A stretch of 45,047 nt of DNA from Alphaproteobacteria bacterium (lineage in GTDB: Bacteria; Pseudomonadota; Alphaproteobacteria; Reyranellales; Reyranellaceae), in contig VGCZ01000043.1 in NCBI GenBank assembly GCA_016869975.1, positions 1-45,047 of the forward strand. Direction: 5' to 3'. Shown here piece after piece: positions 11,281-28,161 of this stretch (position 1 is the first letter of the stretch; each line of letters opens with the position of its first letter). Made by a program: the position numbers and the translations under genes. Under the pieces are notes generated by a model. The model was not told where the DNA came from. It saw only the letters and a program-made list of their open reading frames with translations, and searched no databases.

Positions 11281-12267
11281 ATGCGGATCTGCGTGTTCGG
11301 GGCGGGCTCGATCGGGGGCAATTTCGCCACGCGCCTGGCGTTGGCCGGCAACGAGGTATCGGTCGTGGTGCGCGGCGCGCATCTCGAGGCGATCAAGGCG
11401 CGTGGGCTCACCATGCTGAGCGGCGACAAGACCTTCAACGTGACGGTCAAGGCGAGCGACCGGCCCGAGGATCTCGGGCCGCAGGACGTGGTGATCTCGA
11501 CCATGAAGGCGTGCAGCCTGTCGGGGCTGGCCGAGACGGTGGCGCCGCTGCTGGGCAAGGAGACGCCGGTGGTCTTCGTGCAGAACGGCATTCCCTGGTG
11601 GTACGCGACCGGGCTCGGCGCGGCGCGGCCGCCGGCGCCTGATCTGTCGCGGCTCGATCCCGGCGGTGCGCTGGCGAAAGCGGTGGGCCACGCGCGCACG
11701 ATCGGCGCCGTGGTCACCTCGTCGAACCACGTGATCGAGCCCGGCGTGGTGCGCAACATCTCGCCCGACCGCAACACGCTGTGGGTCGGCGAGACCGACG
11801 ACACGCAGAGCCCGCGCATCGAGCGACTGCGCGCTACCCTGATCGCCGCCGGCATTGCCTCGCCGGCGACGCGCGATATCCGCTACGACGTCTGGCACAA
11901 ACTGATGGCCAATCTCACCGGCTCGACGCTCTGCCTGCTGCTTGCGCAGCCCACCACCATCCAGGCGACGCCGATGATCAACCGCCTGGCGCGCCGCGCC
12001 CATGCCGAGGCGCTGGCCGTGGCCGCCGCGCATGGCGTGGCGCTCGACGATTCCCCCGATGTGCGCTACGGCCCCAAGCGCGTCTATCCCGACCACCGCC
12101 CGTCGCTTCTGCAGGACTACGAGTACGGACGGCCGATGGAGATCGAGTCGATCGTGCGCGCGCCGGTCGCCTTCGCGCGCACGGCCGGGATCGACACGCC
12201 CACCCTCGACGCGATCGAGGCGCTCAGTGTCAGCAAGGCGACGTCGAAGGGGTTGTACGCGGCGTGA
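11281..12267 (+). CDS. Ketopantoate reductase family protein (2-dehydropantoate 2-reductase-like)
   Basis: A 328-residue NADPH-dependent reductase of the ApbA/PanE fold. The start at 11281 gives MRICVFGAGSIGGNFATRLAL, placing the dinucleotide motif GAGSIGG at residues 7-13, normal for the family. Other landmarks are VVISTMKACSL (substrate-domain hinge region), FVQNGIPWWY (conserved NG), and K207 in DVWHKLMANLTGS, the expected catalytic lysine. Classical PanE reduces ketopantoate for pantothenate/CoA synthesis, but paralogues in catabolic clusters reduce other 2-oxo acids. As no panB or panC lies nearby, I do not assign panE. It is convergent with the hyuB-like gene, with a 14-base-arm palindrome between them. 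Confidence 0.88.
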   Translation: MRICVFGAGSIGGNFATRLALAGNEVSVVVRGAHLEAIKARGLTMLSGDKTFNVTVKASDRPEDLGPQDVVISTMKACSLSGLAETVAPLLGKETPVVFVQNGIPWWYATGLGAARPPAPDLSRLDPGGALAKAVGHARTIGAVVTSSNHVIEPGVVRNISPDRNTLWVGETDDTQSPRIERLRATLIAAGIASPATRDIRYDVWHKLMANLTGSTLCLLLAQPTTIQATPMINRLARRAHAEALAVAAAHGVALDDSPDVRYGPKRVYPDHRPSLLQDYEYGRPMEIESIVRAPVAFARTAGIDTPTLDAIEALSVSKATSKGLYAA

Positions 12268-12314: not shown

Positions 12315-13973
12315 TCACTTCGACCCGTAAACCTCGCGCGCGGCCTGCTCGCTGATCAGGCCGTATTCGACGTCGCGCGCGACCAGGCTCGCGTCGCGCG
12401 CTTTGGGATCGCCGTAGCCGCCGCCGCCGGGCATCTCGATGATGATGCGATCGCCGGGTGGGATGATGTGCAGGCCCTTCTCGGGGAATTGCTTGCCCGA
12501 TTTCAGGCTCAGCCGGCCGGTCGCGCCGTCCTTGCCACCGGCGCGGCCGCGCGCGGGATACTTCACGCGCTCGAAGCGATGGAAGATGCCCATCGGCGAG
12601 TCCTCGCGATTGCTCACCTCCATGATCTGGCCCAGCCCGCCGCGCTGCCGCCCGGCGCCGCCGGAATCGGCGCGCAGCTCCTTGCGCCAGACCACGATGG
12701 GCGTGATCGACTCGGTGACCTCGACCGGCACATTGCGCACGCCGCTGGGGAAGGGCGTCGCCGACAGCCCGTCGAGTCGTGGCCGCGCGCCGACGCCGCC
12801 GGAGTGGAAGGTCGTGACGTTGAACGGCGTCTTGATCTCCGATGCGTGCCCGGTCTGGCCGTGCGCGGCGACCAGCGAGAGGTTCCACAGCGAGGACGTG
12901 CCCTCGGCCGGGAAGGTATCGGGGATCGCCTGGTCGAGGCAGCCGAAGACGATGTCCGGCAGCATGTGGCCGAGCACCGAGCGCGCGTAGACGGCGGCGG
13001 GATGCGGCGCGTTGAGGATGCAGCCCTCCGGCGCGCTGACGATGATCGAGTCGAGCGTGCCGGCGTTGTTGGGGATCCACGGCGCGATGGCGCATTTGAC
13101 GCCGAACGCGGTGTAGGCGTCGGTGTAGCAGAACGGGCAATTGATGGCGTAGCTCGAGATGCCCGATGTGCCGGTGTAGTCGACCTTGATGACGTCGGCC
13201 TCGATGGTGAGCGTGCCTTTCAGCTCGACCGGCGCCTCGAAGCCATCGACGGTCATGCTGGCGCTCCAGCTGCCACGCGGCAGCTTCGATATCGCCTCGA
13301 CCATCGCCTGCCTGCTGCGGCTGATGATGGTGTCGGCGAGCTCGTCGATGTCGTTCAGCCCGAACTCGTCCATCATCTCGATCAACCGCGCGCTGCCGGT
13401 GTCGTTGCAGGCGGCGAGACCGTAGATGTCACCCACCACCTGCACCGGCTCGCGCACATTGGCGCGCACGATGCCCAGCAGGTCCTCGTTCATCCTGCCT
13501 TCGCGCGCCAGGTACATCAGCGGGATCTGCAAGCCCTCGTGGTAGACCTGCCTTCCCGACGGGCTGGCGCCGATGCCGCCGATATCGACGACATGCGTGG
13601 TGCTGGCGAACAGCGCCACCGCCTTGCCGTCCTTGAAGGTCGGGCTGACCACGGTGAGATCGAACAGGTGGCCGGTGCCCTTCCACGGATCGTTGGTGAT
13701 CAGCACGTCGCCTTGCTTGAGCGTCTCGATCGGAAACGCGTCGAGGAAATGCCGTACCGCGCGCGCCATCGTATTGACGTGGCCCGGCGTGCCGGTGACC
13801 GCCTGCGCCACCATGCGGCCCTGGCGGTCGAAGACGCCGGCCGAGATGTCGCCGGCCTCGCGCGCCGCCGTGCTGAAGGCCGTGCGCACCAGGGTCAGCG
13901 CCTGCTCCTCGACAACGGAGATCAGGCGGTTCCACAACACCTGACTCTCGATCTCGCCCAGACGGTTGTTCAT
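12315..13973 (-). CDS. hyuB: Hydantoinase B/oxoprolinase family protein
   Basis: A 552-residue HyuB-type subunit, normally paired with HyuA for ATP-dependent opening of a cyclic imide or lactam (5-oxoproline, hydantoin, N-methylhydantoin) or a carboxylase relative. Segments include the N-terminal NNRLGEIESQVLWNRLIS, AAREAGDISAGVFDRQGRM, TGTPGHVNTMARA, LITNDPWKGTGHLFDLTVVSP, and C-terminal HIIPPGDRIIIEMPGGGGYGDP, all typical of the family. The ATG at 13973 has AGGAG upstream; the open frame further upstream only reads through a palindromic repeat. HyuA lies 61 bases upstream on the same strand. The substrate cannot be told from sequence alone; the neighbouring molybdenum hydroxylase suggests a hydroxylated N-heterocycle. 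Confidence 0.93.
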   Translation of the reverse strand: MNNRLGEIESQVLWNRLISVVEEQALTLVRTAFSTAAREAGDISAGVFDRQGRMVAQAVTGTPGHVNTMARAVRHFLDAFPIETLKQGDVLITNDPWKGTGHLFDLTVVSPTFKDGKAVALFASTTHVVDIGGIGASPSGRQVYHEGLQIPLMYLAREGRMNEDLLGIVRANVREPVQVVGDIYGLAACNDTGSARLIEMMDEFGLNDIDELADTIISRSRQAMVEAISKLPRGSWSASMTVDGFEAPVELKGTLTIEADVIKVDYTGTSGISSYAINCPFCYTDAYTAFGVKCAIAPWIPNNAGTLDSIIVSAPEGCILNAPHPAAVYARSVLGHMLPDIVFGCLDQAIPDTFPAEGTSSLWNLSLVAAHGQTGHASEIKTPFNVTTFHSGGVGARPRLDGLSATPFPSGVRNVPVEVTESITPIVVWRKELRADSGGAGRQRGGLGQIMEVSNREDSPMGIFHRFERVKYPARGRAGGKDGATGRLSLKSGKQFPEKGLHIIPPGDRIIIEMPGGGGYGDPKARDASLVARDVEYGLISEQAAREVYGSK

Positions 13974-13994
13974 GGGGTCAGCTCCTGCGCGTCC

Positions 13995-14022
13995 TCCCTC
14001 TCCCCGCTTGCGGGGAGAGGGA
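13995..14022. repeat. Palindromic repeat between hyuA and hyuB
   Basis: Perfect 13-base arms (13995-14007; 14010-14022) around a TT loop lie in the 61-base gap between two same-strand genes that encode partner subunits. Like the bkd copy it is intra-operonic, so it should not be a complete terminator. Confidence 0.85.
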
Positions 14023-14034
14023 ATGATGGCGGCC

Positions 14035-16101
14035 TCATCCGGCATCCCTCTCGATGATCACGTGGCCGGCGCCGTTGAGGATGGCGGTGAAGCCGCCGGG
14101 GATGAGGGTCGAGGTTTCGGCCTCGGCGATAATCGCCGGGCCTTGCACCGGTGCGCCGGGTCGCAGTGTGTCGCGGGCGTAGACGCCGGCGTCGACAGTC
14201 TTGCCGCTCACCGGATCGACCAGGTCGCGTGTGCCGTTGCGTGCGGGGGCGGGACTTGCCGCGACGGACGCGGCGCGTGCCGGCAGGCCGCGCGCTTCGC
14301 TCAGCGAAAGGGTCCAGCTCACCACCTCGATCTCCAGCTTCGGGATGATGCGGCCGTAGAGCGCGCGATAGACCGCCTCGAAGGCCAGCCGCATCGTCTC
14401 GGACGACGTGTCGGCGATCGGCACGCGCACCTCGTGGCCCTGGCCGCGATAGCGCATATAGGCGGTGCGCTCTTCACGCAGGTCGGCCTTGGGCGCGCCC
14501 AGGCGCACGACGCCTTCGGCCTCCGCGCGCATCGAGGCGAAGAGGTCGGTGACGAAGGCCGCGTCGTAGGCGGCGAGTGAGACGAGTCGCGAGCGCACGA
14601 CTTCGTAGGAGATCGGCGCTTGCAGAAAGCCGTGCGCCGAGCCGACGCCGGCGCCGACCGGGATCACCACCCGGGTAATGCCGAGCTTCTGCGCCAGCCG
14701 CGCGGCGTGCAGCGGGGCGGCGCCACCGAAGGCGATCAAGGTGCGGCCGACCATGTCCTTGCCGTTCTCGACCGCGTGCACGCGTGCCGCGCTCGCCATC
14801 GTCTCGGTCACCAGCTCGGCGATGCCGTAGGCGGCGCGCGTGCGCTCCAGGCCGATCCTGCCGCCGACAAAGCTCTCGATCGCGCTCTCGGCGGCCTGCG
14901 GTGCGAGGTCGATATGGCCACCAGCGAAGCGCTTCGGATCGAGCCAGCCCAGCAGCAGGTCGGCATCGGTGACCGTGGGCAAGGTGCCGCCGCGGCCGTA
15001 GGAGGCGGGGCCGGGCACCGATCCGGCGCTGTCCGGGCCGACGGTGATGCGGCCCAGCGCGTCGGTGCGCGCGATCGACCCGCCGCCGGCGCCGATCTCG
15101 ACCATGTCGATCACCGGGATGCGCACGGGAATGCCGCTGCCCTTGACGAAGCGCGCGGCGCGGGCGACCTCGAAGTGCCTGCTGTATTGCGGGCGCAGAT
15201 CGTCGATCAACGTGATCTTGGCCGTCGTGCCGCCCATGTCGAAGCTGAGCGCCTTGGCGATGCCGTTCTGTGCCGCGACGCCCAGCGCCATCACCACGCC
15301 GCCGGCCGGGCCCGATTCGGCCAGCCGCACCGGGAAGCGGCGCGCGGTCTCGACCGTGGTGATGCCGCCCGAGGACATGATCATGAGTAGCGGTGCCTGC
15401 GTGCCGAGATCGCGGAATCCCGCGTCGAGCCGGCGCAGGTAGCGCTCGACCACCGGCAGCACATAGGCGTTGGCCACCGTCGTCGAGGTGCGCTCGTACT
15501 CGCGGATCTCCGGGCAGACCTCGCTGGAGATCGCAATCACCGCCTCGGGGATTCGCCTGGCGATGATCTCCCGCGCGCGCCGCTCGTGCGCGTCGTTCTG
15601 GTAGGCGTGCAGGAAGCAGATCGCCACCGCCTCGACCTTGTCGGCGACGAGTCGCTCGGCGAGGCGCTCGACCGCCGCCTCGTCCAGCGGCAGCAGCACC
15701 GAGCCGTCGGCGGCGACGCGCTCCGGCACCTCGTAGCGCAGCGGCCTGGGCGCGAGCGGCTCGGGCCGTTCCATGTAGATGTCGTACTGCTCGAAGCGGT
15801 GCTCGTAGGCGATCTCCAGCGAGTCGCGGAAGCCCTCGGTCGTCACCAGCGCCGTGCGCGCGCCCTTGCGCTCGATCAGGGCGTTGGTGATCAGGGTGGT
15901 GCCGTGGATGATCAGGTCGAGATCGGCGGGTTTCAGCCCCGCCTGCTTGAGCACGATGTCGGTACCCTCCAGCACCCCACGCTCCGGCGCGTCGTGCGTG
16001 GTCAGCACCTTGGCCGACAACGAGCGCTCGCCGAGATCGAGCACGAGATCCGTGAAGGTGCCGCCGATGTCGACGGCGAGGCGGGTGGTCGAGTGGGTCA
16101 T
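14035..16101 (-). CDS. hyuA: Hydantoinase A/oxoprolinase family protein
   Basis: A 688-residue HyuA-type subunit with an actin-like ATPase fold. The N-terminus RLAVDIGGTFTDLVLDLGE carries the phosphate-1 motif; LIIHGTTLITNALIERKGARTALVTTEGF, FLHAYQNDAHE and SSEVCPEIREYERTSTTVANAY are hydantoinase A N-terminal hallmarks; LSFDMGGTTAKI is the second ATP-binding element; ENGKDMVGRTLIAFGGAAPLHAA marks the C-terminal part. The length matches bacterial HyuA/OXP-A. The ATG at 16101 has GGAGGGAG about 8 bases upstream, and that sequence belongs to the arm of a degenerate palindromic repeat. It sits between the orphan molybdenum-hydroxylase subunit and hyuB, and the three probably form one transcript. 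Confidence 0.94.
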   Translation of the reverse strand: MTHSTTRLAVDIGGTFTDLVLDLGERSLSAKVLTTHDAPERGVLEGTDIVLKQAGLKPADLDLIIHGTTLITNALIERKGARTALVTTEGFRDSLEIAYEHRFEQYDIYMERPEPLAPRPLRYEVPERVAADGSVLLPLDEAAVERLAERLVADKVEAVAICFLHAYQNDAHERRAREIIARRIPEAVIAISSEVCPEIREYERTSTTVANAYVLPVVERYLRRLDAGFRDLGTQAPLLMIMSSGGITTVETARRFPVRLAESGPAGGVVMALGVAAQNGIAKALSFDMGGTTAKITLIDDLRPQYSRHFEVARAARFVKGSGIPVRIPVIDMVEIGAGGGSIARTDALGRITVGPDSAGSVPGPASYGRGGTLPTVTDADLLLGWLDPKRFAGGHIDLAPQAAESAIESFVGGRIGLERTRAAYGIAELVTETMASAARVHAVENGKDMVGRTLIAFGGAAPLHAARLAQKLGITRVVIPVGAGVGSAHGFLQAPISYEVVRSRLVSLAAYDAAFVTDLFASMRAEAEGVVRLGAPKADLREERTAYMRYRGQGHEVRVPIADTSSETMRLAFEAVYRALYGRIIPKLEIEVVSWTLSLSEARGLPARAASVAASPAPARNGTRDLVDPVSGKTVDAGVYARDTLRPGAPVQGPAIIAEAETSTLIPGGFTAILNGAGHVIIERDAG

Positions 16102-16149: not shown

Positions 16150-18471
16150 TCATGATTTGCGTGCCGCCTGGATCGCTTGCCAGACCGCTTGCGGCGTCGC
16201 TGGCATGTCGAGGTGCGTCACGCCCAGCGGCTTCAGCGCATCGAGGATCGCGCTCATGATTGTCTGGGGCGCGGACATGCAGCCGGCCTGGCCGACGCCT
16301 TTCACGCCCAGGCGATTCGAGGCGGTGGGCGCCGACGCGTCGAGATGGCCGGCGAAGCTCGGCAGGTCGTCGGCGCGCGGCAGGGCGTAGTCTATGAACG
16401 AGGCGCTCAGCATCTGACCGGAGCCGGGATCGAAGACGGTGTGCTCGATCATCGCCTGGCCGATGCCCTGCGCGAGACCGCCATGCACCTGGCCCAGGGT
16501 CAGCATGGGATTGAGCAGGCGGCCGTAATCGTCGACCAGCGTGTAGCGGTCGAGCCGCACCGCGCCGGTCTCGGGATCGATCTCGACCTCGGCGACGTGG
16601 CAGCCATTGGGGAAGCCGAACTTGTCGCTGGGGTTGTTGGCCAGGCTATCGAGCCCCGGCGCCATGCCTTCCGGCAGGTTGGCGGCATCGCGCGCCGCGG
16701 CGGCGACGTCGAGCAGGGCGATGGCGCGATCCGTGCCATCGACGACGAAGCGGCCGTCGACGAAGCGCACGCCCTCGACCGGCGCCTGCAGCAGGTGCGC
16801 GGCGATGCGCCGTGCCTTCTCCAGCGCCGCCTCGATCGCCATGACCAGCGCTGTGCCGCCCATCTGCATCGAGCGCGCGCCGCCATGCCCGTTGCCGCTG
16901 GGCAGCAGCTCGGTGTCGCCCTGGCGGTAGCGGAAGGTCTCGATCGGCAGGCCCAGCATGTCGGCCGCGACTTGCGGATAGGTCGTCTCGTGGCCCTGGC
17001 CGTTCGACATGGTGCCCACGGCCAAGGTCACGCCGCCATCGGCGTCGAAGGCGATGCGCGCGACCTCGCCCGGCGCGCCGCGCGCCGTCTCGAGGAAGCA
17101 CGACAGGCCCCAGCCGCGCAGCAACCCGGCTTCGGCCGAGCGCTTGCGGCGGGCCTCGAATCCCTTCTGGTCGGCGACGCGCAATGCGTCGTCGAGATTG
17201 GCGACGAAGCGACCGCCGTCGATCTGCAGGCCGGTCGGCGTGCGATGCGGGAAGCTCGACATCAGGTTACGTCGCCGCAGCTCGACCGCGTCGATGCCGG
17301 TTTCCCGCGCCGCCTGATCGACGAGGCGTTCGATCAGGTAGTTGGCCTCCGGTTTTCCCGCGCCACGATACGCGTCGATCGGCGGCGTGTTGGTGAAGAC
17401 GCCGCGCGTCTCGAGGAACGCCGCCGGGATGGCGTAGACGCCGCCCATGGCGTTGCCCGCCGACACGGTCGAGGTTCCCGGGCCGGCGCCCGACAGATAC
17501 GCGCCCATGTTGGCGATCGCCCGCACATCGAGCGCGAGGAAGCGGCCGTTTTCGTCGAGCCCCAGCCGTGCCCGCGCGCGGAAGTCGCGGCCCTGCGCCG
17601 AGGTCAGAAAATCCTCGACGCGCTCCGACACCCAGCGCACCGGACGGCGCAGTTTGCGCGCGGCGTAGAGCAGGTGCACCCATTCCGGATAGACGAAGTT
17701 CTTCATGCCGAAGCCGCCGCCGACATCGGGCACGCTCAGGCGCAGGCGATCCGGCTTGATGCGGAAGATCGACTCGGCAAGCTGTCGGCGGATGCCGTGC
17801 ACGGCCTGACCCGTGAGTGTCAGGTGCAGCAGGTCCTGCGCCGCGTCGTAGGTGGCAATGGCCGCACGCGTCTCGATCGGCGCGACGACGACGCGGTTGT
17901 TGAGCAGATCGGCGGTGACGATGTGTTTGGCCGAGGCCATCGCCGCGTCCACCGCCGCCTTGTCGCCGCGGTGATAGAGAAAGGCGGAGTTACCCGGCAC
18001 CTGCGGCCAGAGCTGCGGCGCGCCTGACTCGAGGGCGGCGGCGCCGTCGACAACAGCGGGCAGGGGCGTGTAGTCGACCTCGATGGCGTCGGCCGCCTCG
18101 AGCGCCGCCTCGATCGACTCGGCAATGACACAGGCCACCGGATCGCCGACATGGCGCACGACATCCTTCGCCAGCGCCGGGCGCGGCGGCACGATCAGCT
18201 TCTCGACGAAATCGATGGCGACGGCGCAGGGCAGGGGACCGATGCCGTCGGCGGCGAGGTCGGCCTCGGTGTAGATCGCGACCACGCCGGGCAGCTTGCG
18301 CGCGGCGCCGACGTCCAGCCGGTCGATCCGCGCGTGACCGTGCGGCGAGCGCAGCACGTAGGCGTGCAGGCAGCCGGCGGGGATCGCGTTGGCGACGTAG
18401 GTGCCCTTGCCGGTGAGGAAGCGTGCGTCCTCGAGGCGGCTGAGCGAGCGGCCGAGATAGGTGTCTGGCAT
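16150..18471 (-). CDS. Molybdenum hydroxylase large subunit without local M/S partners
   Basis: A 773-residue xanthine dehydrogenase/CoxL-family molybdopterin-binding subunit, which hydroxylates a substrate carbon using water. The N-terminal a/b-hammerhead part starts YLGRSLSRLEDARFLTGKGTYV; molybdopterin-binding GGGFGMK is at 251-257; the family motif AYRGAGKPE is at 367-375; TMSNGQGHETTYPQVAADMLG follows. At the C-terminus the usual G-x-G-E motif reads GVGQAG: the position of the catalytic glutamate is Q728 (codon CAG on the minus strand at 16290-16288). No FAD or 2Fe-2S subunit is encoded on this strand nearby; the CoxM/CoxS-like genes at 19878-21223 are the nearest possible partners. Its upstream start region overlaps a palindrome. 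Downstream are hyuA and hyuB. Confidence 0.93.
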   Translation of the reverse strand: MPDTYLGRSLSRLEDARFLTGKGTYVANAIPAGCLHAYVLRSPHGHARIDRLDVGAARKLPGVVAIYTEADLAADGIGPLPCAVAIDFVEKLIVPPRPALAKDVVRHVGDPVACVIAESIEAALEAADAIEVDYTPLPAVVDGAAALESGAPQLWPQVPGNSAFLYHRGDKAAVDAAMASAKHIVTADLLNNRVVVAPIETRAAIATYDAAQDLLHLTLTGQAVHGIRRQLAESIFRIKPDRLRLSVPDVGGGFGMKNFVYPEWVHLLYAARKLRRPVRWVSERVEDFLTSAQGRDFRARARLGLDENGRFLALDVRAIANMGAYLSGAGPGTSTVSAGNAMGGVYAIPAAFLETRGVFTNTPPIDAYRGAGKPEANYLIERLVDQAARETGIDAVELRRRNLMSSFPHRTPTGLQIDGGRFVANLDDALRVADQKGFEARRKRSAEAGLLRGWGLSCFLETARGAPGEVARIAFDADGGVTLAVGTMSNGQGHETTYPQVAADMLGLPIETFRYRQGDTELLPSGNGHGGARSMQMGGTALVMAIEAALEKARRIAAHLLQAPVEGVRFVDGRFVVDGTDRAIALLDVAAAARDAANLPEGMAPGLDSLANNPSDKFGFPNGCHVAEVEIDPETGAVRLDRYTLVDDYGRLLNPMLTLGQVHGGLAQGIGQAMIEHTVFDPGSGQMLSASFIDYALPRADDLPSFAGHLDASAPTASNRLGVKGVGQAGCMSAPQTIMSAILDALKPLGVTHLDMPATPQAVWQAIQAARKS

Positions 18472-18586: not shown

Positions 18587-19843
18587 ATGAACTCGGGCCG
18601 TATTCGTCGTCGTACCGCCGTGGCCGGCGCGCTGGCCGCCGGTCTGCCCTTGCCGGCGCTGGCGCAGGGCGCCGGGCCGATCAAGATCGGCATGAGCATG
18701 CCGCAGACCGGCGGGCTGGCCGCCGGCGGCAAGTCCTCGCTGATCGGCATCGAGGTCTGGCGCGACGATGTAAACGAGAAGGGCGGGTTGCTCGGCCGCA
18801 AGGTCGAAATGATCGTCTACGACGACAAGTCGAGCGCCTCGGAGACGCCGGCGATCTATTCCAAGCTGCTAGACGTCGACAAGGTCGACCTGATCTTCGC
18901 GCCCTACGCCACGGTGCCGACGGCGCCGATCATGCCTCTGGTCAAGCAGCGCGACCTGCTGCTGATCGGCAATTTCTCCTTCCAGGTGAACCGCACGGTC
19001 AAGCACGACAAGTGGTTCAACAACGCGCCGTGGGGCCCGGCCGATTCCTGGGCGCGCGCCTTCATCGATCTGGGCATGAAGGCTGGCGCCGATTCGATCG
19101 CGCTGATCGGCGCCGACCAGGAGTTCGCGCAGAGCCTGATCAGGATCGCCAAGGGGCTCGCCGAGGAGAAGAAGCTAAAGGTCGTCTACGAGCAGAGCTA
19201 TCCGCCGGCTACCGTCGAGTTCTCGGCCATGGTACGGGCGCTGCGCGCGGCGCGGCCGGGCATGGTGTTCGTCTGTTCCTATCCGCCGGATTCGGTCGGC
19301 CTGCTGCGCGCCGTCAACGAGATCGGTGTCGGCGAGAGCGTCAAGGTGTTCGGCGGCGGCATGGTCGGCCTGCAGTTCAGCGCCGTGGCCGAGTCGATGG
19401 GCTCGCTGCTCAACGGCGTGGTCAACTACAATTCCTACCTGCCCGAAAAGTCGATGGAGTTCGCGGGCTCCAAGGAGTTCTTCGTCAAGTACCAGAAGCG
19501 CGCGGTCGAGGCGAAGGTCGATCCGCTGGGCTACTACCTGGCGCCGTTCGGCTACGCCATGGGCCAGATGGTCGAGCAGGCGGTGGCGGCGACCAAGTCG
19601 ATCGAGCACAAGAAGCTGGCCGACTTCCTGCGCACGGCGGAGATGCCGACCATCGTTGGCCCGATCGCCTTCGCGGCCGACGGCGAGCGCAAGGAATCGG
19701 CGACCCTGATCGCGCAGTATCGCGGTGTCGTCGACAAGAACATCGAGCAGTTCCGCAGCCCCGGAAAGCAGGTGATCCTGTCGCCCGAGAAGTGGAAGAC
19801 TGGGGAGCTGATCCAGCCCTTCGAGAAGGCGCGCAAGGGCTAG
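18587..19843 (+). CDS. Branched-chain-amino-acid-type ABC transporter substrate-binding protein
   Basis: A 418-residue periplasmic binding protein of the Leu/Ile/Val-binding (Peripla_BP_6) class. The ATG at 18587 is chosen for the GGAGGA 8 bases upstream and because it starts an export signal: R-R-R at 7-9, hydrophobic AVAGALAAGLPLPALA, cleavage likely after A26. The mature part begins with IKIGMSMPQTGGLAAGGKSS, a classical strand 1, and continues with GLLGRKVEMIVYDDKSSASETPAIYSKLL. Proteins of this class often bind aromatic or heterocyclic carboxylates rather than amino acids. The gene starts an apparent eight-gene plus-strand transcript, followed by molybdenum hydroxylase M, S and L genes and then livHMGF, which supplies its permease and ATPase. 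Confidence 0.93.
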   Translation: MNSGRIRRRTAVAGALAAGLPLPALAQGAGPIKIGMSMPQTGGLAAGGKSSLIGIEVWRDDVNEKGGLLGRKVEMIVYDDKSSASETPAIYSKLLDVDKVDLIFAPYATVPTAPIMPLVKQRDLLLIGNFSFQVNRTVKHDKWFNNAPWGPADSWARAFIDLGMKAGADSIALIGADQEFAQSLIRIAKGLAEEKKLKVVYEQSYPPATVEFSAMVRALRAARPGMVFVCSYPPDSVGLLRAVNEIGVGESVKVFGGGMVGLQFSAVAESMGSLLNGVVNYNSYLPEKSMEFAGSKEFFVKYQKRAVEAKVDPLGYYLAPFGYAMGQMVEQAVAATKSIEHKKLADFLRTAEMPTIVGPIAFAADGERKESATLIAQYRGVVDKNIEQFRSPGKQVILSPEKWKTGELIQPFEKARKG

Positions 19844-19877: not shown

Positions 19878-20729
19878 GTGAAAGCCCCCGACTTCGCCTA
19901 CGCGCGGCCCACCGTTCTGTCGGAGGTCTTCGACCTTCTCGACGGCGACGGCGACGTACGGCTGCTGGCCGGGGGCCAGAGCCTGGTGCCGTCGCTCAAC
20001 ATGCGGCTGTCGGCGCCAAGCCTGCTGGTCGACATCAATCGCCTGCCGGGGCTGTCGGGCATCGAGGCGCGCGATGGCGTCGTTCGCATCGGCGCCTTGA
20101 CGCGGCACGGCGAGATCGCCCGCTCGGCGCTGATCGCCGAGCGGTTGCCGCTGCTCGCCATGGCGGCGCCGCACATCGCGCACGCCGCGATCCGCAACCG
20201 CGGCACGTTCGGCGGGTCGATCGCGCTGGCCGACCCGGCGGCCGAGTGGCCGGCCTGCTGCCTCGCGCTCGGCGCGACGATGGTGGTGGCGAGCCGCGCC
20301 GGCGAACGGCGCGTCGCCGCCGGCGACTTCTTCACCGGGCTGTTCGCGACGGCGCTGCGGCGCGGCGAAGTCCTGGTGGCGATCGAGATCGCCTCGCCGC
20401 CGGCCGGCTCGGTCGCGCATTTCAGCGAGCTCGCCCGGCGCCGCGGCGACTATGCCATCGTCGGCCTGGCCGCGCAGGTCGCCCGCGCCGAGGACGGCGC
20501 GATGGATCCGCGCCTGGCGTTCTTCGGCGTCGGCGACCGGCCGGTGCTCGCCGAGGCCACCCGACGCGTCATCGCCGGTGGCGGCGGTATCGCCGACGCC
20601 CAGGCGACGCTCGGCAGGGACCTGGCGCCGACTGGCGACGCCGAGTGCGCCGGTGCGACCAAGCTGCACCTGGCGCGCGTCCTGCTCGGCCGCGCCATGG
20701 CCGCGTTGCGGACGCGAGGCGACGCGTGA
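19878..20729 (+). CDS. FAD-binding medium subunit of a molybdenum hydroxylase (CoxM type)
   Basis: A 283-residue FAD-binding PCMH-type subunit that passes electrons from the 2Fe-2S subunit to the acceptor. FAD contacts are seen as LLAGGQSLVPSLNMRL (AGGQS at 31-35) and AIRNRGTFGGSIALADP (T110-FGGS), plus the C-terminal CO-dehydrogenase flavoprotein domain with ELARRRGDYAIVGLAAQV. The start is GTG at 19878 with AGGAGGG 4 bases upstream. Its TGA overlaps the GTG of the next gene by three bases (GTGA). The pair of subunits downstream completes a standard L-M-S enzyme in the order M-S-L. Confidence 0.95.
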   Translation: MKAPDFAYARPTVLSEVFDLLDGDGDVRLLAGGQSLVPSLNMRLSAPSLLVDINRLPGLSGIEARDGVVRIGALTRHGEIARSALIAERLPLLAMAAPHIAHAAIRNRGTFGGSIALADPAAEWPACCLALGATMVVASRAGERRVAAGDFFTGLFATALRRGEVLVAIEIASPPAGSVAHFSELARRRGDYAIVGLAAQVARAEDGAMDPRLAFFGVGDRPVLAEATRRVIAGGGGIADAQATLGRDLAPTGDAECAGATKLHLARVLLGRAMAALRTRGDA

Positions 20730-21223
20730 GCGCCGGGCCGGACAACGCACGCGTCGTCACGCTCACCGTCAACGGCGAGCGGGTGAGCCGCCGCGTCGCC
20801 GCGCGCGCGCATCTCGTCGACTTCTTGCGCGACACCCTCGATCTCACCGGCACCCATGTCGGGTGCGAGCACGGTGTGTGCGGCGCCTGCACGGTGCGCG
20901 TCGACGGCATGGCCGTGCGCGGCTGCCTGATGCTCGCGGTGCAGGCCGACGGGGCGGTGGTCGAGACCGTCGAGGGCCTCACCGACCGCGGCGCCATCGC
21001 CGATCTTCAGGAGGCCTTCCTGGCGCGCAACGCCCTTCAATGCGGCTTCTGTACGCCGGGCATGCTGATCACCATCGCCGAGCTTCTCGAACGCGAGGCG
21101 GCGCCCTCGCGCGCGGCGATCCGCGAGGCGATCTCCGGCAACTACTGCCGGTGTACCGGCTATCAGGCGATCGTCGACGCCGTCGAGCGGACGCTGGCGG
21201 CGCGCGCCGGGCGGGCGACATGA
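20726..21223 (+). CDS. [2Fe-2S] small subunit of a molybdenum hydroxylase (CoxS type)
   Basis: A 165-residue iron-sulfur subunit with both expected clusters. The plant-ferredoxin-type cluster uses C47, C52, C55 and C67 (HVGCEHGVCGACTVRVDG ... RGC). The helical-domain cluster uses C106, C109, C141 and C143 (LQCGFCTPGM ... NYCRCTGYQ). The start is a GTG overlapping the M-subunit stop; the frame further upstream is only an alternative reading of the M gene. The stop overlaps the ATG of the large subunit (ATGA), so M, S and L are translationally coupled. All eight cluster cysteines are present, so the subunit looks functional. Confidence 0.96.
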   Translation: MSAGPDNARVVTLTVNGERVSRRVAARAHLVDFLRDTLDLTGTHVGCEHGVCGACTVRVDGMAVRGCLMLAVQADGAVVETVEGLTDRGAIADLQEAFLARNALQCGFCTPGMLITIAELLEREAAPSRAAIREAISGNYCRCTGYQAIVDAVERTLAARAGRAT

Positions 21224-23598
21224 GCGAACCGGCGCTGAGCTTCCTCGATCGACCAAACAGCTATATCGGCCGGTCGGTGCCGCGGCCGAACGCGCGTCGA
21301 CTGGTGCAAGGCCGCGGCGCTTACGTCGATGATCTGCGCCTGCCGCGCATGGCGCACGTCGCGTTCCTGCGCAGCCCGCGCGCCCATGCGCGCATCGTGC
21401 GGATCGACACCGCCGCCGCCAAGGCCGCGCCCGGCGTGGTCGCCGTGGTGACCGGCGAGGATCTCGCCGGGATCTGCAAGCCCTGGGTCGCCGTTCTCAG
21501 CCATTTCAAGGGTCTGCGCTCGCCGCCGCAACACCCCCTGGCGATCGGCTGGTTGCGCTGGGCCGGCGAGCCGTTTTGCGCGGTCGTCGCGGCGAGCCGG
21601 GCCGAGGCCGAGGACGCCGTGGCGCTGATCGACGCGGAGCTCGAACCGCTGCCGGTGGCGGTCGACATGGAGGCGGCGCTCGCGCCGGGCGCGACCGTCA
21701 TCCATCCCGAGCTGGGCGACAATCTGGCCTTCGAACGCACGCTGGACGTGGGCGACGTCGACGCCGCCTTCCGCACCGCCGCCGCGGTCGTCGAACAGAC
21801 GTTTCACGTCGGGCGGCACACCGGCGTCACGCTGGAGCCGCGCGCGCTGGTGGCCGAGTGGAACCCGGGCGAGGAGAAGCTCACCATCCACCACTCGTTC
21901 CAGGCGCCGCACATGATGCAGGACATCGTGTGCAAGCATCTCGGCTTGCCCGAGGCCAGCGTGCGCGTGGTGTGCGGGGATGTCGGCGGCTCCTTCGGCA
22001 TCAAGGTCCATATCTACCCGGACGAGATGGCGACGGTGGCCCTGGCGAAGCTGCTGGCTCGGCCGGTCAAGTTCGTCGCCGACCGGTTGGAATCCTTCGT
22101 GTCCGACATCCACGCCCGCGACCATCGCGTGAAGGGGCGCATGGCGGTCGACGCGGCTGGCGCGATCCTGGGAATCGAGATCGACGATCTCACCGGCATC
22201 GGTCCCTACTCGGTCTACCCGAGGACCAGCGCCGTCGAGGCCAACCAGGTCGTCAACCTGGTGGGCGGGCCGTATCGTCACGCGAACTATCGCGCCCGTG
22301 CGCGCGTGGTCTTTCAGAACAAGACGCCGATGTGCCAGTACCGCGCCGTCGGTCACCCGATCGCGGTGATGGTGACCGAGGGACTGGTCGACCTCGCGGC
22401 GGCGGCGATCGGGATGGATCCGGCGGAGCTGCGGCGGCGCAATGTCATCGCCGACGACGCGCATCCCTCGACGGCCGCCTCGGGAATCAGGTTCGAGAAG
22501 CTCTCGCACCAGCGCTCGCTCGAGAAGCTGCTGGCGATGATGGACTACGACGCGCTGCGCCGCGAACAAGCCGCGCTGCGCGCCCGCGGCATCCATCGCG
22601 GCATCGGACTCGCGGCCTTCATCGAGATCACCAATCCGTCCGCGGCGTTCTACGGCGTAGGCGGCGCCCGCATCTCCTCGCAGGACGGCTGTACCTTGCG
22701 CCTCAACCCGCAGGGCGGTGTGGTCGCGGCGATCGGCGTGACCGAGCAGGGCCAGGGCACCGAGGCGGTGATCGCCCAAGTGGTGGCGACTGCGGTCGGT
22801 GTTCCGTTGTCGGATGTGCGGGTCGTCACCGGCGACACCGACGCCACGCCCTATGGCGGCGGCACCTGGGCTTGCCGCGCCGCCGGCATCGGCGGCGAGG
22901 CGGCCTGGCAGTCAGGCAAGGCGCTGCGCCGCAACATCCTCGAGGCCGCGGCCGTTATGCTGCAGACCAACGCCGCTTCGCTCGATGTCCGCGATGGCAG
23001 TATCGTCGACGCCGACAGCGGCGCGGAGCGCATGAAGCTGTCCGAGTTCGGCCGCGTCGCCTATTTCCGGCCCGACACGCTGCCGGCCGGTCTGGCGCCG
23101 GAGCTCGTGGTCACGCGCCACTACGTGCCGAAGGACTATCCATTCGCCTTCACCAACGGCGTGCAGGCGTCCTATGTCGAGGTCGACACCGACACCGGCT
23201 TCGTCACGCTGATCAAGCATTGGTGCGTGGAGGATTGCGGCACGGTGATCAATCCGCAACTCGTCGACGAGCAGATTCGCGGCGGTATCGTGCAGGGCAT
23301 CGGCGCGGCGCTGTTCGAGGAGTGCCGCTACGACGGTCAGGGCCAGATGCTGAATGGCAACATGGCCGACTATCTCGTGCCGATGGCCGCGGAGATGCCC
23401 GACATCGATGTCGCGCACGTCGTGACGCCCACGGCGTCCTCGGAGATCGGCGCCAAGGGCGCGGGAGAGGCCGGTACGGCGGGCGCGCCGGCGGCGGTGA
23501 TCAACGCCATCAACGACGCGCTGCGCCCGCTGGGCGCGCGCGTCGATAGCCAGCCGGCCGGGCCCCAGGCTATCCTGCGCGCCCTTGGAAAGGTGTGA
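21220..23598 (+). CDS. Molybdenum hydroxylase large subunit (CoxL/xanthine dehydrogenase family)
   Basis: A 792-residue molybdopterin-binding catalytic subunit. The ATG at 21220 overlaps the S-subunit stop; the longer open frame upstream is a shadow of M and S. Segments include YIGRSVPRPNARRLVQGRGAYVDD (N-terminal), VVCGDVGGSFGIKVHIYPDE (cofactor binding), GVTEQGQGTEAVIAQVVATAVG, and C-terminal IGAKGAGEAGTAGAPAAV with the catalytic glutamate at E750. Where most relatives have AYRGAGRPE, this protein has CQYRAVGHP (C372-P380), and the AYRCSFR loop of true CO dehydrogenase is also absent, so CO is not the likely substrate. Aromatic or N-heterocyclic hydroxylation is an inference from family and neighbours. 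The last 140 bases before livH hold a hairpin. Confidence 0.94.
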   Translation: MSEPALSFLDRPNSYIGRSVPRPNARRLVQGRGAYVDDLRLPRMAHVAFLRSPRAHARIVRIDTAAAKAAPGVVAVVTGEDLAGICKPWVAVLSHFKGLRSPPQHPLAIGWLRWAGEPFCAVVAASRAEAEDAVALIDAELEPLPVAVDMEAALAPGATVIHPELGDNLAFERTLDVGDVDAAFRTAAAVVEQTFHVGRHTGVTLEPRALVAEWNPGEEKLTIHHSFQAPHMMQDIVCKHLGLPEASVRVVCGDVGGSFGIKVHIYPDEMATVALAKLLARPVKFVADRLESFVSDIHARDHRVKGRMAVDAAGAILGIEIDDLTGIGPYSVYPRTSAVEANQVVNLVGGPYRHANYRARARVVFQNKTPMCQYRAVGHPIAVMVTEGLVDLAAAAIGMDPAELRRRNVIADDAHPSTAASGIRFEKLSHQRSLEKLLAMMDYDALRREQAALRARGIHRGIGLAAFIEITNPSAAFYGVGGARISSQDGCTLRLNPQGGVVAAIGVTEQGQGTEAVIAQVVATAVGVPLSDVRVVTGDTDATPYGGGTWACRAAGIGGEAAWQSGKALRRNILEAAAVMLQTNAASLDVRDGSIVDADSGAERMKLSEFGRVAYFRPDTLPAGLAPELVVTRHYVPKDYPFAFTNGVQASYVEVDTDTGFVTLIKHWCVEDCGTVINPQLVDEQIRGGIVQGIGAALFEECRYDGQGQMLNGNMADYLVPMAAEMPDIDVAHVVTPTASSEIGAKGAGEAGTAGAPAAVINAINDALRPLGARVDSQPAGPQAILRALGKV

Positions 23599-23740: not shown

Positions 23741-24613
23741 ATGTTCTCCTGGGAGCTCCTGCTCGACGCCGTTGTGCTGGGCACGATGGTCGGCTGCTTC
23801 TATGCCGCGGTCAGCATCGGGCTGGCGATCTCCTTCGGCATGCTCGACGTGCCCAACGTCACGCATCCGGCGCTGCTGGTGCTGGCGTCGTACGGCGCCT
23901 GGCTGCTGGGCGGCTTCGAGATCGACCCGATCCTCGCCGGGCTGATCCTGATGCCGCTGTTCTTCGTGCTGGGCATCGCGCTCTACCGCGTCTACCACGA
24001 GACCTTCGAGAAGCGCGGCAGCCAGGCGGCGGTGCGCGGCCTGGCCTTCTTCTTCGGCATCACCTTCATCATCGAGGTCGGCATCATCATGGCCTTCGGT
24101 GTCGACCAGCGCACCGTGCAGGCCTTCTACATCGGCAAGAGCATCGAGATCCTCGAGATCCGCATCCCGATGCGCATGATCGCCGCCTTCGTCATGGCGC
24201 TGCTGCTGTCGGGCGTGCTGGCGCTCTATTTCAACCGGACCTTCCTGGGCCGCGCCATCCGCGCTGTGGCCCAGGACGAGGAGGCGCTGCGCCTGATGGG
24301 CGCCGATCCCGTGCGCATCAAGCAATGGGCCTTCGGCATCGCCACGGCGGTCGCGGCGCTGGCCGGCGCGCTCCTGATCATCGTGCAGCCGGTCGAGCCG
24401 ACCTTGGATCGCGCCTATATCGGCCGCACCTTCTGCGTCGTGGTGATGGCCGGGCTGGGCAGCATGTCCGGCACCTTGGTCGCCGGTATCATCCTGGGCG
24501 TGGCCGAGACCATCGTGTTGACGATGTTCGGCGCGTCGTGGGCGCCGGCGATCTCGTTCACCTTGCTGCTGATCATCCTCGGCGTGCGCCCACAGGGGCT
24601 GTTCGGACGATGA
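23741..24613 (+). CDS. livH: Branched-chain-amino-acid-type ABC transporter permease, LivH family
   Basis: A 290-residue inner-membrane permease with about eight hydrophobic segments. Family features are the N-terminal VLGTMVGCFYAAVSIGLAISFGMLDVPNVTHPALLVLASY and the cytoplasmic EAA-like loop AIRAVAQDEEALRLMGADPVRIKQWAFG, which contacts the ATPases; the C-terminus ends IILGVRPQGLFGR, as LivH proteins do. The ATG at 23741 has GCGAGGG just upstream. It follows the molybdenum hydroxylase genes and precedes livM, separated from the latter by a 160-base composite repeat. The matching binding protein is most likely the one at 18587. Confidence 0.95.
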   Translation: MFSWELLLDAVVLGTMVGCFYAAVSIGLAISFGMLDVPNVTHPALLVLASYGAWLLGGFEIDPILAGLILMPLFFVLGIALYRVYHETFEKRGSQAAVRGLAFFFGITFIIEVGIIMAFGVDQRTVQAFYIGKSIEILEIRIPMRMIAAFVMALLLSGVLALYFNRTFLGRAIRAVAQDEEALRLMGADPVRIKQWAFGIATAVAALAGALLIIVQPVEPTLDRAYIGRTFCVVVMAGLGSMSGTLVAGIILGVAETIVLTMFGASWAPAISFTLLLIILGVRPQGLFGR

Positions 24614-24630
24614 GGGTTCACCTCGCTCAT

Positions 24631-24768
24631 ACCTTCCCCCGCTGGCGGGGGAAGGTGCCCGAAGGGCGGATGGGGGTGGCCGGCATAGCGGCCACACTCG
24701 ATCGTTGGGGTTGTCGCGCGAACCACCCCCATCCGGCGCTTCGCGCCACCTTCCCCCGCCAGCGGGGG
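24631..24768. repeat. Composite inverted repeat between livH and livM
   Basis: Nearly the whole 160-base gap is repeat. A hairpin with 12-base arms lies at 24631-24642/24645-24656 and a second with 7-base arms at 24753-24759/24762-24768. Together they form a larger inverted repeat: 24644-24679 is nearly the reverse complement of 24723-24760 (GGCGGGGGAAGGTG ... GGATGGGGGTGG). The last hairpin ends 5 bases before the livM ATG, and its GGGGGCAGG may serve as ribosome-binding site. This resembles mobile intergenic elements bounded by inverted ends. Confidence 0.85.
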
Positions 24769-24773
24769 CAGGC

Positions 24774-25727
24774 ATGAGCATGCGTTCCGTTCCCTTCCTG
24801 ATCGGCGCCGCCGTCTTCCTCACGGCGGCAGTGACAGCCGCGTTCGTGGTGCGCAACGAGTACGTCTTCTTCGCCGGCTTCGTGATCCTGCAGTTCATCG
24901 TGCTGGCGACGGCGTGGAACATCCTCGGCGGCTACGCCGGCTACGTGAATTTCGGCACCTCGGCCTTCGTCGGCGTCGGCATCTACACCGCCGTGGCCGT
25001 CTTCAAGTACGCCGGCGCGCCACTCTATCTGCAGATGCTCGCCGCCGCGGCGGTCGGCGCCGCGCTCGGACTGGGCGTCGGCCTGCTGACCCTGCGCCTG
25101 CGCGGCATCTTCTTCTCCATCGCCACCGTCGCCGTCACCATCATCGCCGAGACCTTGATCACCAACTGGAAGTTCGTCGGCGGCGCCACCGGGGTACAGC
25201 TGCTGCGCCCGCCACCGACCGCGCCGTTCGAGTCCTACATCAAGATGCTGTTCGTCGTCGTCGCGGTCCTGGTGGTGATAGCGGTCGCGCTGGCGCGCTA
25301 CATCCAGCTCTCCGGCGTCGGCCGCGGGTTGCGCGCGGTACGCGACGACGAGGTCGCCGCCGAATGCTCCGGCGTGCCGACGCTCAAGCTGAAGCTGCTG
25401 GCCTGCGCCATTTCCGGCGCGCTGATGTCGGCCGCCGGCGCGCCAGCGGCGATGTACCTGCAGTTCGCCGATCCGGTGAGCGCCTTCAACCTCAACTACT
25501 CGGTCTCGGCGCTGGCGATGTCGCTGATCGGCGGCACGGCGCACTGGATCGGCCCGGTGCTGGGCGCCATCCTGCTCGCCACGACCCAGCAGTTCCTCAC
25601 CGTGACCATCTCGTCCGAAGTGAACGTGCTGGTGCTGGGCGTGATGCTGGTGCTGTTCGTCGTCGGCGCGCCCGATGGCATCATCGGCCTGGCCAAGCGG
25701 GCCTGGCAGCGCTGGGGGCGGCGATGA
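24774..25727 (+). CDS. livM: Branched-chain-amino-acid-type ABC transporter permease, LivM family
   Basis: A 317-residue inner-membrane permease. Features: hydrophobic N-terminal segment FLIGAAVFLTAAVTAAFVV, the LivM hallmark LATAWNILGGYAGYVNFGTSAFVGVG, LRLRGIFFSIATVAV, and the ATPase-contact loop GRGLRAVRDDEVAAECSGVPTLKLKLLA. I place the start at the ATG at 24774; a second ATG two codons on (24780) is possible. The open frame upstream of 24774 is the repeat read through. Its TGA overlaps the livG ATG (ATGA). The product should form a heterodimer with LivH. Confidence 0.94.
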   Translation: MSMRSVPFLIGAAVFLTAAVTAAFVVRNEYVFFAGFVILQFIVLATAWNILGGYAGYVNFGTSAFVGVGIYTAVAVFKYAGAPLYLQMLAAAAVGAALGLGVGLLTLRLRGIFFSIATVAVTIIAETLITNWKFVGGATGVQLLRPPPTAPFESYIKMLFVVVAVLVVIAVALARYIQLSGVGRGLRAVRDDEVAAECSGVPTLKLKLLACAISGALMSAAGAPAAMYLQFADPVSAFNLNYSVSALAMSLIGGTAHWIGPVLGAILLATTQQFLTVTISSEVNVLVLGVMLVLFVVGAPDGIIGLAKRAWQRWGRR

Positions 25728-26452
25728 GCGATCCGTTGCTCAGCGTCAGCGGCGTGTCCAAGCGCTTCGGCGGCTTCACCGCGCTGCAGGACATCTCGCT
25801 GGAGATCCGCGCCGGCGAGCGCTTCGGCCTGATCGGCCCAAACGGCTCGGGCAAGACCACGCTCATCAACTGTATCTCCGGCGTGCTGCGCAACGACGGT
25901 GGCTCGATCCGCTTCGCCGGCCGTGAACTCGGCGGCCTGTCGGCGCATCAGCGCACGCGGCGCGGTATCGCCCGCAGCTTCCAGGTGCCCCGGCCGTTCC
26001 GCAGCATGACGGTGCTGGAGAATCTGCTGGTGGCGCTCGACTACGCGGTGATCGGCCATGGGCTGTCGGCGCGGGAGGCCGACGCCGAGGCGATGGCGAT
26101 CCTCGGCAAGATCGGCCTGGCCGAGAAGGCCGAAGCGCTCTCGGCCCAGCTCTCGCAGGTCGAACTGCGCAAGATGGAGCTGGCGCGCGCCATGGCGGCG
26201 CGGCCGAAGCTGCTGATCTCCGACGAGGCGATGGCCGGGCTGGCCGGCGCGGAGATCGACGAGGTGCTCGACACGCTGTTCAAGCTCAACGCCGAGGGCA
26301 TCACGGTGATCATGATCGAGCACATCATGCAGGCGGTGATGCGCTTCTCGCAGCGCGTGATGTGCCTCGATGCCGGGCGCGTCATCTGCGAGGGCGCGCC
26401 GCAGGCGGTTATGGACGACAAGCGCGTGCAAGAGGCCTACCTTGGCGCTTAG
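25724..26452 (+). CDS. livG: ABC transporter ATP-binding protein, LivG family
   Basis: A 242-residue cytoplasmic ATPase. Walker A GPNGSGKT is at 38-45, Q-loop Q87 in RSFQVPRPF, Walker B LLISDE at 163-168 and switch H200 in MIEHIM. The signature motif is LSQVE (143-147), unlike the LSGGQ or LSYGQ of most ABC ATPases, and the D-loop reads AGLAGAE. Some LivG subfamilies tolerate such variation, so function is still expected, with the canonical signature supplied by LivF in the heterodimer. The start overlaps the livM stop. Length is close to the LivG norm of about 250. Confidence 0.94.
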   Translation: MSDPLLSVSGVSKRFGGFTALQDISLEIRAGERFGLIGPNGSGKTTLINCISGVLRNDGGSIRFAGRELGGLSAHQRTRRGIARSFQVPRPFRSMTVLENLLVALDYAVIGHGLSAREADAEAMAILGKIGLAEKAEALSAQLSQVELRKMELARAMAARPKLLISDEAMAGLAGAEIDEVLDTLFKLNAEGITVIMIEHIMQAVMRFSQRVMCLDAGRVICEGAPQAVMDDKRVQEAYLGA

Positions 26453-27176
26453 GCTCACCGCATCGGCAATCGACGCGCGCTACGGCGCGGTGCGCGCACT
26501 CAATGGCGCGTCGATTTTCGTGGAGAGCGGCGAGACCGTGGTGCTCCTGGGCACCAACGGCAACGGCAAGAGCACCCTGATGAAATGCCTGATGGGCCTG
26601 GTGCGGCCCGTATCAGGGTCGATCACGCTGGAGGTCGACGGCGTCACGCACGATCTGACACGCCTGCCGACCGAAGAGATCGTCGGGCTGGGCGTGGCGC
26701 TGGTGCCGGAGGGCAGGCGGCTCTTCCCCAAGCTCACGGTCGAGGAAAACCTGATGCTGGGCGCCTACCGCAGGAGCGCGCGCGAGCGGACCGCGGCGAA
26801 TCTGAGCTTCGCCTACGACGCCTTCCCGGTGCTGGCCGAGCGCCGCAAGCAGCTCGCCGGCACCATGTCGGGCGGCCAGCAGCAGATGCTGGCGATCGCC
26901 CGCGCGCTGATGTCCTCGCCGCGCCTGCTGCTGGTCGACGAGCCGTCAGTGGGGTTGTCGCCGCTGCTGGTGAGCCAGACCATCACCAAGATCGAGGAGC
27001 TGAAGACACGCTTCGGGCTCACCGTGCTGATGGCCGAGCAGAACTTCCACCAGGCCGTCCGTATCGCCGATCGCGGCTACGTCATCGTCCACGGCGAGAT
27101 CGCCTTCGAAGGCAAGACCGTCGACGAGCTGCGCTCCAACGAGATCGTCAAGCAGCTGTACCTCGGCGGCGCGTAG
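26442..27176 (+). CDS. livF: ABC transporter ATP-binding protein, LivF family
   Basis: A 244-residue ATPase with a fully canonical set of motifs: Walker A GTNGNGKS (37-44), signature MSGGQQQ (142-148), Walker B LLLVDE (162-167), and the LivF hallmark VPEGRRLFPKLTVEENLMLGAY. I take TTG at 26442 as the start: it overlaps the 3' end of livG by 11 bases and yields the expected short N-terminus (M/L-ALRLTASAIDARYG); no ATG or GTG gives a better one, and the longer open frame reads livG out of frame. The stop is followed directly by a strong palindrome shared with the convergent TauD-like gene. Confidence 0.94.
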   Translation: MALRLTASAIDARYGAVRALNGASIFVESGETVVLLGTNGNGKSTLMKCLMGLVRPVSGSITLEVDGVTHDLTRLPTEEIVGLGVALVPEGRRLFPKLTVEENLMLGAYRRSARERTAANLSFAYDAFPVLAERRKQLAGTMSGGQQQMLAIARALMSSPRLLLVDEPSVGLSPLLVSQTITKIEELKTRFGLTVLMAEQNFHQAVRIADRGYVIVHGEIAFEGKTVDELRSNEIVKQLYLGGA

Positions 27177-28091: not shown

Positions 28092-28161
28092 GATCCGGCT
28101 CCTGATTCCTTGATCCACGGATCCCGCCAACAGCATCCGCCGAATGGTCGTGTCAATCAAG

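Follow-up and report, generated by a model that had tools for sequence, protein, structure and literature searches.

What chemistry remains to a large subunit of the xanthine oxidase family when the glutamate beside its molybdenum has become a glutamine? Descriptions of this enzyme family assign the start of catalysis to that Glu. The question is raised by a CoxL-like gene in a stretch of 45,047 nucleotides from a Reyranellaceae contig, here called the window, see Table 1.

The original prediction placed Gln at the position of the catalytic Glu, and this is confirmed: the minus-strand codon 16290-16288 is CAG and encodes residue 728. In phmmer alignments, Gln728 lies opposite the catalytic Glu, gap-free nearby, in the CO dehydrogenases (CODH) of M. 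smegmatis (8uem) and H. pseudoflava (1ffu), in quinoline 2-oxidoreductase (1t3q, QorL) and in KdhL (7dqx), where the equivalence to E748 comes from counting along the printed alignment. Gapless alignment to four solved enzymes rules out a misalignment. Within the window's genome, every paralogue long enough for the length filter (11/11) has Glu.

The fold and cofactor-binding domains of a xanthine oxidase family large subunit are present, as seen from Pfam, an AF2 model and structural matches. The AF2 model (input of 52 sequences from the window and related loci) has a mean pLDDT of 93.4 and its best structural match is CODH 1n63_B (Z 45.9, rmsd 2.0, 756 residues), with further matches to QorL 1t3q (Z 44.7) and R. 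capsulatus XDH 1jro (Z 40.8); the 50 entries listed have Z 34-46 and are all of this family by title. The rest of the protein had been described as intact. GGGFGMK (at residue 251) and AYRGAGKPE (at 367) are indeed present, but in the latter Arg has been replaced by Lys, as is typical of the Q-type group, i.e., the proteins with Gln at 728, and further positions are altered.

Table 1. Features of the Q-type locus and of an independent Gln protein. Positions refer to the window unless a locus is given; the codon coordinates of Lys373, Arg464 and His529 were computed from residue numbers.
Feature	Positions	Strand	Remarks
HyuB-like hydantoinase/oxoprolinase subunit B	12315..14045	-	Pfam Hydantoinase_B; start codon uncertain
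HyuA-like hydantoinase/oxoprolinase subunit A	14035..16101	-	Pfam Hydantoinase_A; 48 bases downstream of Q-type gene
Q-type CoxL-like molybdopterin-binding large subunit, 773 aa	16150..18471	-	Pfam MoCoBD_1, MoCoBD_2, Ald_Xan_dh_C
Codon CAG, Gln728, catalytic-Glu position	16288..16290	-	ORF translation and alignment
His529 codon	16885..16887	-	His in 45/45 Gln rows and both Glu sisters; Thr in 65/75 Glu rows
Arg464 codon	17080..17082	-	Arg in 45/45 Gln rows, 0/75 Glu rows
Lys373 codon (AYRGAGKPE)	17353..17355	-	Lys in 45/45 Gln rows; Arg in 66/75 Glu rows
LivK-like branched-chain-type ABC substrate-binding protein, divergent	18587..19843	+	Start inferred
CoxM-like FAD subunit of neighbouring Glu-type enzyme	19878..20729	+	Pfam FAD_binding_5, CO_deh_flav_C
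CoxS-like 2x[2Fe-2S] subunit of neighbouring Glu-type enzyme	20741..21223	+	Pfam Fer2, Fer2_2; start approximate
CoxL-like large subunit with usual Glu (GAGEAG)	21220..23598	+	33% identical to Q-type protein; start inferred
LivH, LivM, LivG, LivF-like transporter genes	23741..27176	+	
Independent Gln protein (genome G267)	L169:7196-9472		42% identical; keeps AYRGAGR

Homologues were collected from two sets, one genome per species for 84,980 species (74 loci) and the genome of the window together with 60 relatives. Gln is found in every full-length homologue of at least 54% identity and also in L035 and L037 at 50%. Among proteins with Glu, L033 and L036 (52-53% identity) and the partial L091 (55%) come closest, and the remoter rows that reach column 728 have Glu. 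In 120 full-length rows this column contains Gln 45 times, Glu 75 times and no other residue. These rows are matches that span at least 650 query residues and reach residue 745, after removal of identical rows (124 to 120) and of copies sharing 99.5% identity or more with the window; the region loci L126-L145 were left out, and partial loci were added for the tree and the codon count. The rows were sorted by Gln or Glu, so that "Gln in 45/45" is circular; the tree, with its 31 rows, serves as the independent check.

The tree, a quick search with no bootstrap, was built with columns 728 and 373 removed. Of the Gln rows, 31 form one clade (SH-aLRT 100), whose sister consists of two Glu rows, L033/L036 (support 96). 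On this tree the Gln/Glu labels require 2 changes, whereas shuffled labels need 21.7 on average. The clade is nested among form II (AYRGAGR) CoxL-like large subunits, and its members also come from families f68, f76, f81 and f172, which belong to the window's class and lie outside its order. The original prediction held that a conserved Gln would be a subfamily trait, and the homologue column indeed shows Gln throughout a monophyletic clade, including the Q-type protein itself (31/31 rows). Neither of the alternatives it raised, a different residue in this column or a Gln confined to one strain, was found. Judged from the sequences, the Glu-to-Gln change is natural and maintained, a trait of one lineage nested in the form II CoxL-like group.

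The pattern surveys demand an exact VKGxGQAG and miss variants such as L025 (AKGAGQAG). At the DNA level, 17 of 385 genomes of the class contain this pattern, with 18 matches in total: 13 with clade motifs, one independent Gln and four unrelated sequences. A draw of 249 genomes from the phylum gave eight exact matches, four unrelated and four with clade motifs (two already known), and none of these four lies outside the class. Searching 142 genomes of the class for VKGxG[QE]AG gave 93 matches, 88 with Glu (pattern matches, individually unchecked) and five with Gln, four of which have clade motifs. The matches L146, L149, L162, L163, L164, L165 and L168 were rejected, as they are not large-subunit genes. 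A plasmid collection contains no close copy; the best place is below 60% identity in each of 1045 records, and 47% is the highest identity among the best 25 of the 1045. Our literature search, with most subscription papers outside its scope, found no described Gln variant or account of the subfamily.

The Q-type gene has a dN/dS of 0.11-0.29 against five relatives, similar to the adjacent hyuA (0.09-0.25) and hyuB (0.10-0.29); these are simple Nei-Gojobori counts, and dS has reached 0.7-1.0 in the three remoter relatives. By these counts the gene is under purifying selection. Where matches in the window's genome and its relatives contain one in-frame stop, this is mostly the terminal stop, judged from the match ends (query 769-773). 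The 53 non-redundant Gln copies use CAG 48 times and CAA five times, one of the latter being the independent Gln. Both Gln codons are thus in use, i.e., the residue itself is kept and not merely one codon.

Gln728 does not stand alone. Several positions separate the 45 Gln rows from the 75 Glu rows (counts in this order): R464 (45; 0), K373 (45; 1), Q736 (44; 0), W264 (44; 0), A532 (45; 2), H529 (45; 2), Q562 (45; 3), N377 (45; 3), F459 (45; 4) and L460 (45; 4). The Glu sisters L033/L036 have H529 and lack R464, K373, A532, Q562, Q736 and W264. As His529 is already found in the Glu sisters, it is not clearly a compensation for Gln. E200, Q222, F254, R369, E461, Q492, H494, Q661, Q668, D694, Y695 and K724 are kept in all 45 Gln rows.

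Outside the main clade on the tree, L153 (complete in L169) also has Gln at 728. By this placement it is a second, independent origin of Gln, which has thus arisen independently at least once; its exact place in the tree is unsure, since L010 and L153 are both flagged as long branches. The independent Gln protein has Arg at 373 and Ala at 532, and lacks Lys373, Arg464 and His529. Therefore, those three residues are not required for Gln retention. The next gene after it in L169 is, in our reading of the locus, MsrB-like.

Among the closest characterised enzymes is the Mo-Cu CO dehydrogenase, whose CoxL is both the best structural match (1n63) and the best sequence match (8uem, 450 bits). However, the Q-type protein lacks the AYxCSFR motif of CoxL and has Gln at the Glu position. 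In the accessible part of PMC13203968, form I and form II CoxL are told apart by AYXCSFR and AYRGAGR, and the role of form II is described as unclear. By these motif definitions the Q-type protein, which reads AYRGAGK, lacks the form I motif, and it departs from the form II motif as well, with K373 in 45/45 Gln rows. It shares family and motif region with form II CoxL, and the sisters L033/L036 have AYRGAGR and the usual Glu. It differs in Gln for Glu, Lys as the last residue of the motif, a signature of its own and an operon without coxS/coxM. The coxSLM gene order is not seen either: in the window no coxS or coxM adjoins the Q-type gene.

KdhL (6-hydroxypseudooxynicotine dehydrogenase) and QorL are full-length homologues as well (phmmer 393 and 398 bits). 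For KdhL, the available portion of PMC8305194 reports a cofactor-stabilising role for F269 and R383 and substrate contacts for E748, W551 and E345; Ala at any of the latter three abolishes activity, and E748A has none detectable. In the alignment, F269 and R383 correspond to F254 and R369, both present in 45/45 Gln rows, and E748, W551 and E345 correspond to Q728, G530 and G330. The cofactor-stabilising Phe and Arg are thus common to both proteins, while the substrate-contacting residues are replaced in the Q-type protein. Glu rows, too, most often have Gly at 530 and 330 (43/75 and 46/75), so that neither glycine is tied to Gln.

Mutagenesis of two other enzymes points in the same direction, as far as the accessible parts of the papers go. 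Mouse AOX1 E1265Q, which likewise has Gln in place of the corresponding Glu, has 60% cofactor content and is inactive on all aldehydes and purines tested (PMC2671166), and changes of Glu730 in R. capsulatus XDH slow the enzyme by a factor of at least 10^7 (PMC9966888). From the precedent of these three mutated enzymes, known to us from partial texts, Gln should stop the usual reaction here. E1265Q, as described there, is a single engineered mutation with activity lost, whereas the Q-type protein is a natural state with further changes. The original prediction of a different chemistry or substrate binding is in this way supported indirectly, by the other altered positions and by analogy with mutagenesis of other enzymes.

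Two routes could still allow hydroxylation. According to the QM/MM calculations on Kdh, as given in the accessible text of PMC8305194, the Mo-OH proton goes onto the ring N of the substrate, which is a precedent for a substrate-assisted base. His529, which adjoins the W551 position of KdhL in the alignment, might be a second candidate route to hydroxylation with Gln.

The Q-type gene had also been said to lack M and S subunits of its own. None is present in its operon, although some 1.4 kb away, in divergent orientation, there is a complete CoxM-CoxS-CoxL set. This set (19878-23598) sits inside the LivK...LivH transporter cluster of the window. The 93% identical L022 has the Q-type gene, hyuA, hyuB and the Liv genes (the LivF match is of little meaning, as the LivF query was read in the wrong frame), but it lacks the CoxMSL set, and its LivK adjoins LivH. 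The set is therefore a separate element, either inserted in the window or lost from L022. The idea that the adjacent CoxM and CoxS are dedicated partners is weakened by the lack of the set in L022 and of any M/S match in L126, from the same genus.

Profiles built from the window's own genes found no M/S match in the stretch around the locus for 35 of 39 Q-type loci; these 39 count one place twice, as L023 and L129, and include loci with short flanks. The four loci with matches are the window, L027, L035 and L037. In our reading of L027, an S gene is followed by a different, IorB-like large subunit. In L170:7821-14000 (G612), the Q-type gene stands tail-to-tail with the L-M-S set of another Mo hydroxylase; this set has its own L with the usual Glu, and the Q-type gene adjoins it without being part of it. 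Among Glu-type genes with enough flank, 35 of 45 have no M/S within 4.5 kb. The orphan state as a mark of Gln is thus rejected, and the missing subunits fail as an argument for odd chemistry. In the window's genome (G000), large subunits outnumber electron-transfer subunits among the matches listed: 21 MoCoBD_2 (some genes count for two) versus nine Fer2_2 and five FAD_binding_5.

In the window, hyuB adjoins or overlaps hyuA on the strand of the Q-type gene. The nearest NCBIfam models are caprolactamase alpha for the HyuA-like and caprolactamase beta for the HyuB-like protein, both below their cut-offs. Amide or ureide hydrolases, counted as HyuA, HyuB, M20 (HyuC-like, Pfam Peptidase_M20), amidase and M81 metallopeptidase, are found within 6 kb in 30/43 Q-type loci and in 0/35 Glu-type genes, a comparison that is biased because the families were chosen after viewing the Q-type loci and that is inflated by shared inherited blocks. 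Without duplicate loci (L129=L023, L173=L028) the count is 28/41, and 13 of the 43 have no such hydrolase within 6 kb. The Q-type loci were taken regardless of flank length, while the 35 Glu-type genes have at least 4 kb on each side, which excludes the sister L033; L058 and L063 are counted twice, and minus-strand genes in this set would be centred about 2.3 kb off. Neighbour genes were called by a home-made GC3 rule, with genes missed or fused in, e.g., L025, L032, L035 and L037.

The M20 representative passes TIGR01879, "hydantoinase/carbamoylase family amidase" (306 bits, cut-off 204). The arrangement varies: hyuAB can lie directly downstream, as in the window, or upstream on the other strand (L030), M20 adjoins the Q-type gene in L034/L038/L136/L139, and M81 is directly upstream in L028/L029/L068 and in a different orientation in L032. 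In L068 and L173 (=L028), roughly 50 bases separate the end of the M81/MlrC-type gene from the Q-type gene that follows it on the same strand, and the two likely form one operon. We take the hydrolase neighbours as a hint that the metabolism of amides, lactams or ureides is involved.

We tentatively suggest that the Q-type protein is a Mo-enzyme of N-heterocycle or cyclic-amide breakdown, in which the proton acceptor has been relocated to the substrate or to His529. It would still bind the Mo-pyranopterin cofactor, its substrate would be a nitrogen heterocycle or a cyclic amide or imine, and the product would pass to the hydantoinase-, carbamoylase- or amidase-type hydrolases encoded alongside. 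With less certainty, (i) hydroxylation could be retained, with the Mo-OH proton going to the ring nitrogen of the substrate or to His529 and not to Glu, (ii) the role of Gln728 might be reduced to hydrogen-bonding the substrate, and (iii) Arg464 may help to hold a negatively charged group. M/S subunits encoded at other loci of the genome would take up the electrons. The clade with its signature, the use of both Gln codons, the dN/dS, F254/R369, the Kdh calculations and the hydrolase neighbours speak for the relocated acceptor; against it stands the loss of activity when Glu is lost in three characterised enzymes, as reported in the accessible texts. This reading, favoured at somewhat below even chances, is followed by that of a Mo enzyme that does not hydroxylate.

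In the latter, which the original prediction had also raised and which we consider unlikely, the protein has kept its cofactor and lost hydroxylation, and would carry out a non-redox step on a heterocycle, for example a hydration, isomerisation or tautomerisation, or a redox step without an activated Mo-OH. The retained cofactor-contact residues, the 35/39 Q-type loci without an M/S match around them and the lethality of base loss to hydroxylation in the tested enzymes (from the same partial sources) would fit. However, the Glu-type relatives are orphan too (35/45), so that missing M/S is no mark of non-redox chemistry, and Gln can still hydrogen-bond while other bases are possible. A slightly weaker candidate is an ordinary hydroxylase acting on an easy substrate, for which Glu is dispensable, Gln tunes binding and the other changes reflect specificity. 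Purifying selection and the confident fold agree with this, as do the Kdh calculations (in the part accessible), which let the proton go to the substrate itself; yet with 31/31 rows Gln there is no drift back to Glu within the clade. It is improbable that the protein is a non-catalytic or regulatory paralogue retained for complex formation or sensing: the catalytic residue is lost and the gene is orphan, but the tested cofactor-side residues are retained and many neighbours look catabolic. Decay, sequencing error or misalignment has no finding in its favour and practically no chance, given the gapless alignment, the Gln throughout the clade in many genomes and the low dN/dS, which rule out a strain-specific decay or sequencing error.

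If the relocated acceptor or a related solution holds, which we put forward with reserve, this would be a natural branch of the xanthine oxidase family without the general-base Glu and without dedicated electron-transfer subunits, performing either hydroxylation with a relocated acceptor or a non-hydroxylating step on a cyclic amide. Since the clade lost Glu long ago and the gene was kept under selection, it is a natural experiment on the need for a Glu base. It makes testable whether this base is required or can be replaced by the substrate or another residue: Q-type proteins either carry out something else or show that the textbook mechanism does not hold universally. Cyclic amides and ureides are suggested as candidate substrates. 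It also follows that annotations such as "CoxL/xanthine dehydrogenase family" include proteins whose chemistry cannot be assumed.

The other neighbours of Q-type genes vary widely and include, in our reading, transporters and GST-like, Rieske-type, carboxylase and acyl-CoA genes; no single pathway is evident from them. By the same reading, Liv-type ABC transporter genes lie near the Q-type gene in L127 and L172, as in the window. An arylmalonate-decarboxylase/EutA-like protein (window 29000-29791, below NCBIfam cut-offs), with a relative also in L022, is perhaps part of the same pathway. A TauD-type dioxygenase (27207-28160) and a ketopantoate-reductase-like gene (ApbA; 11143-12267) flank the cluster in the window and recur in L022.
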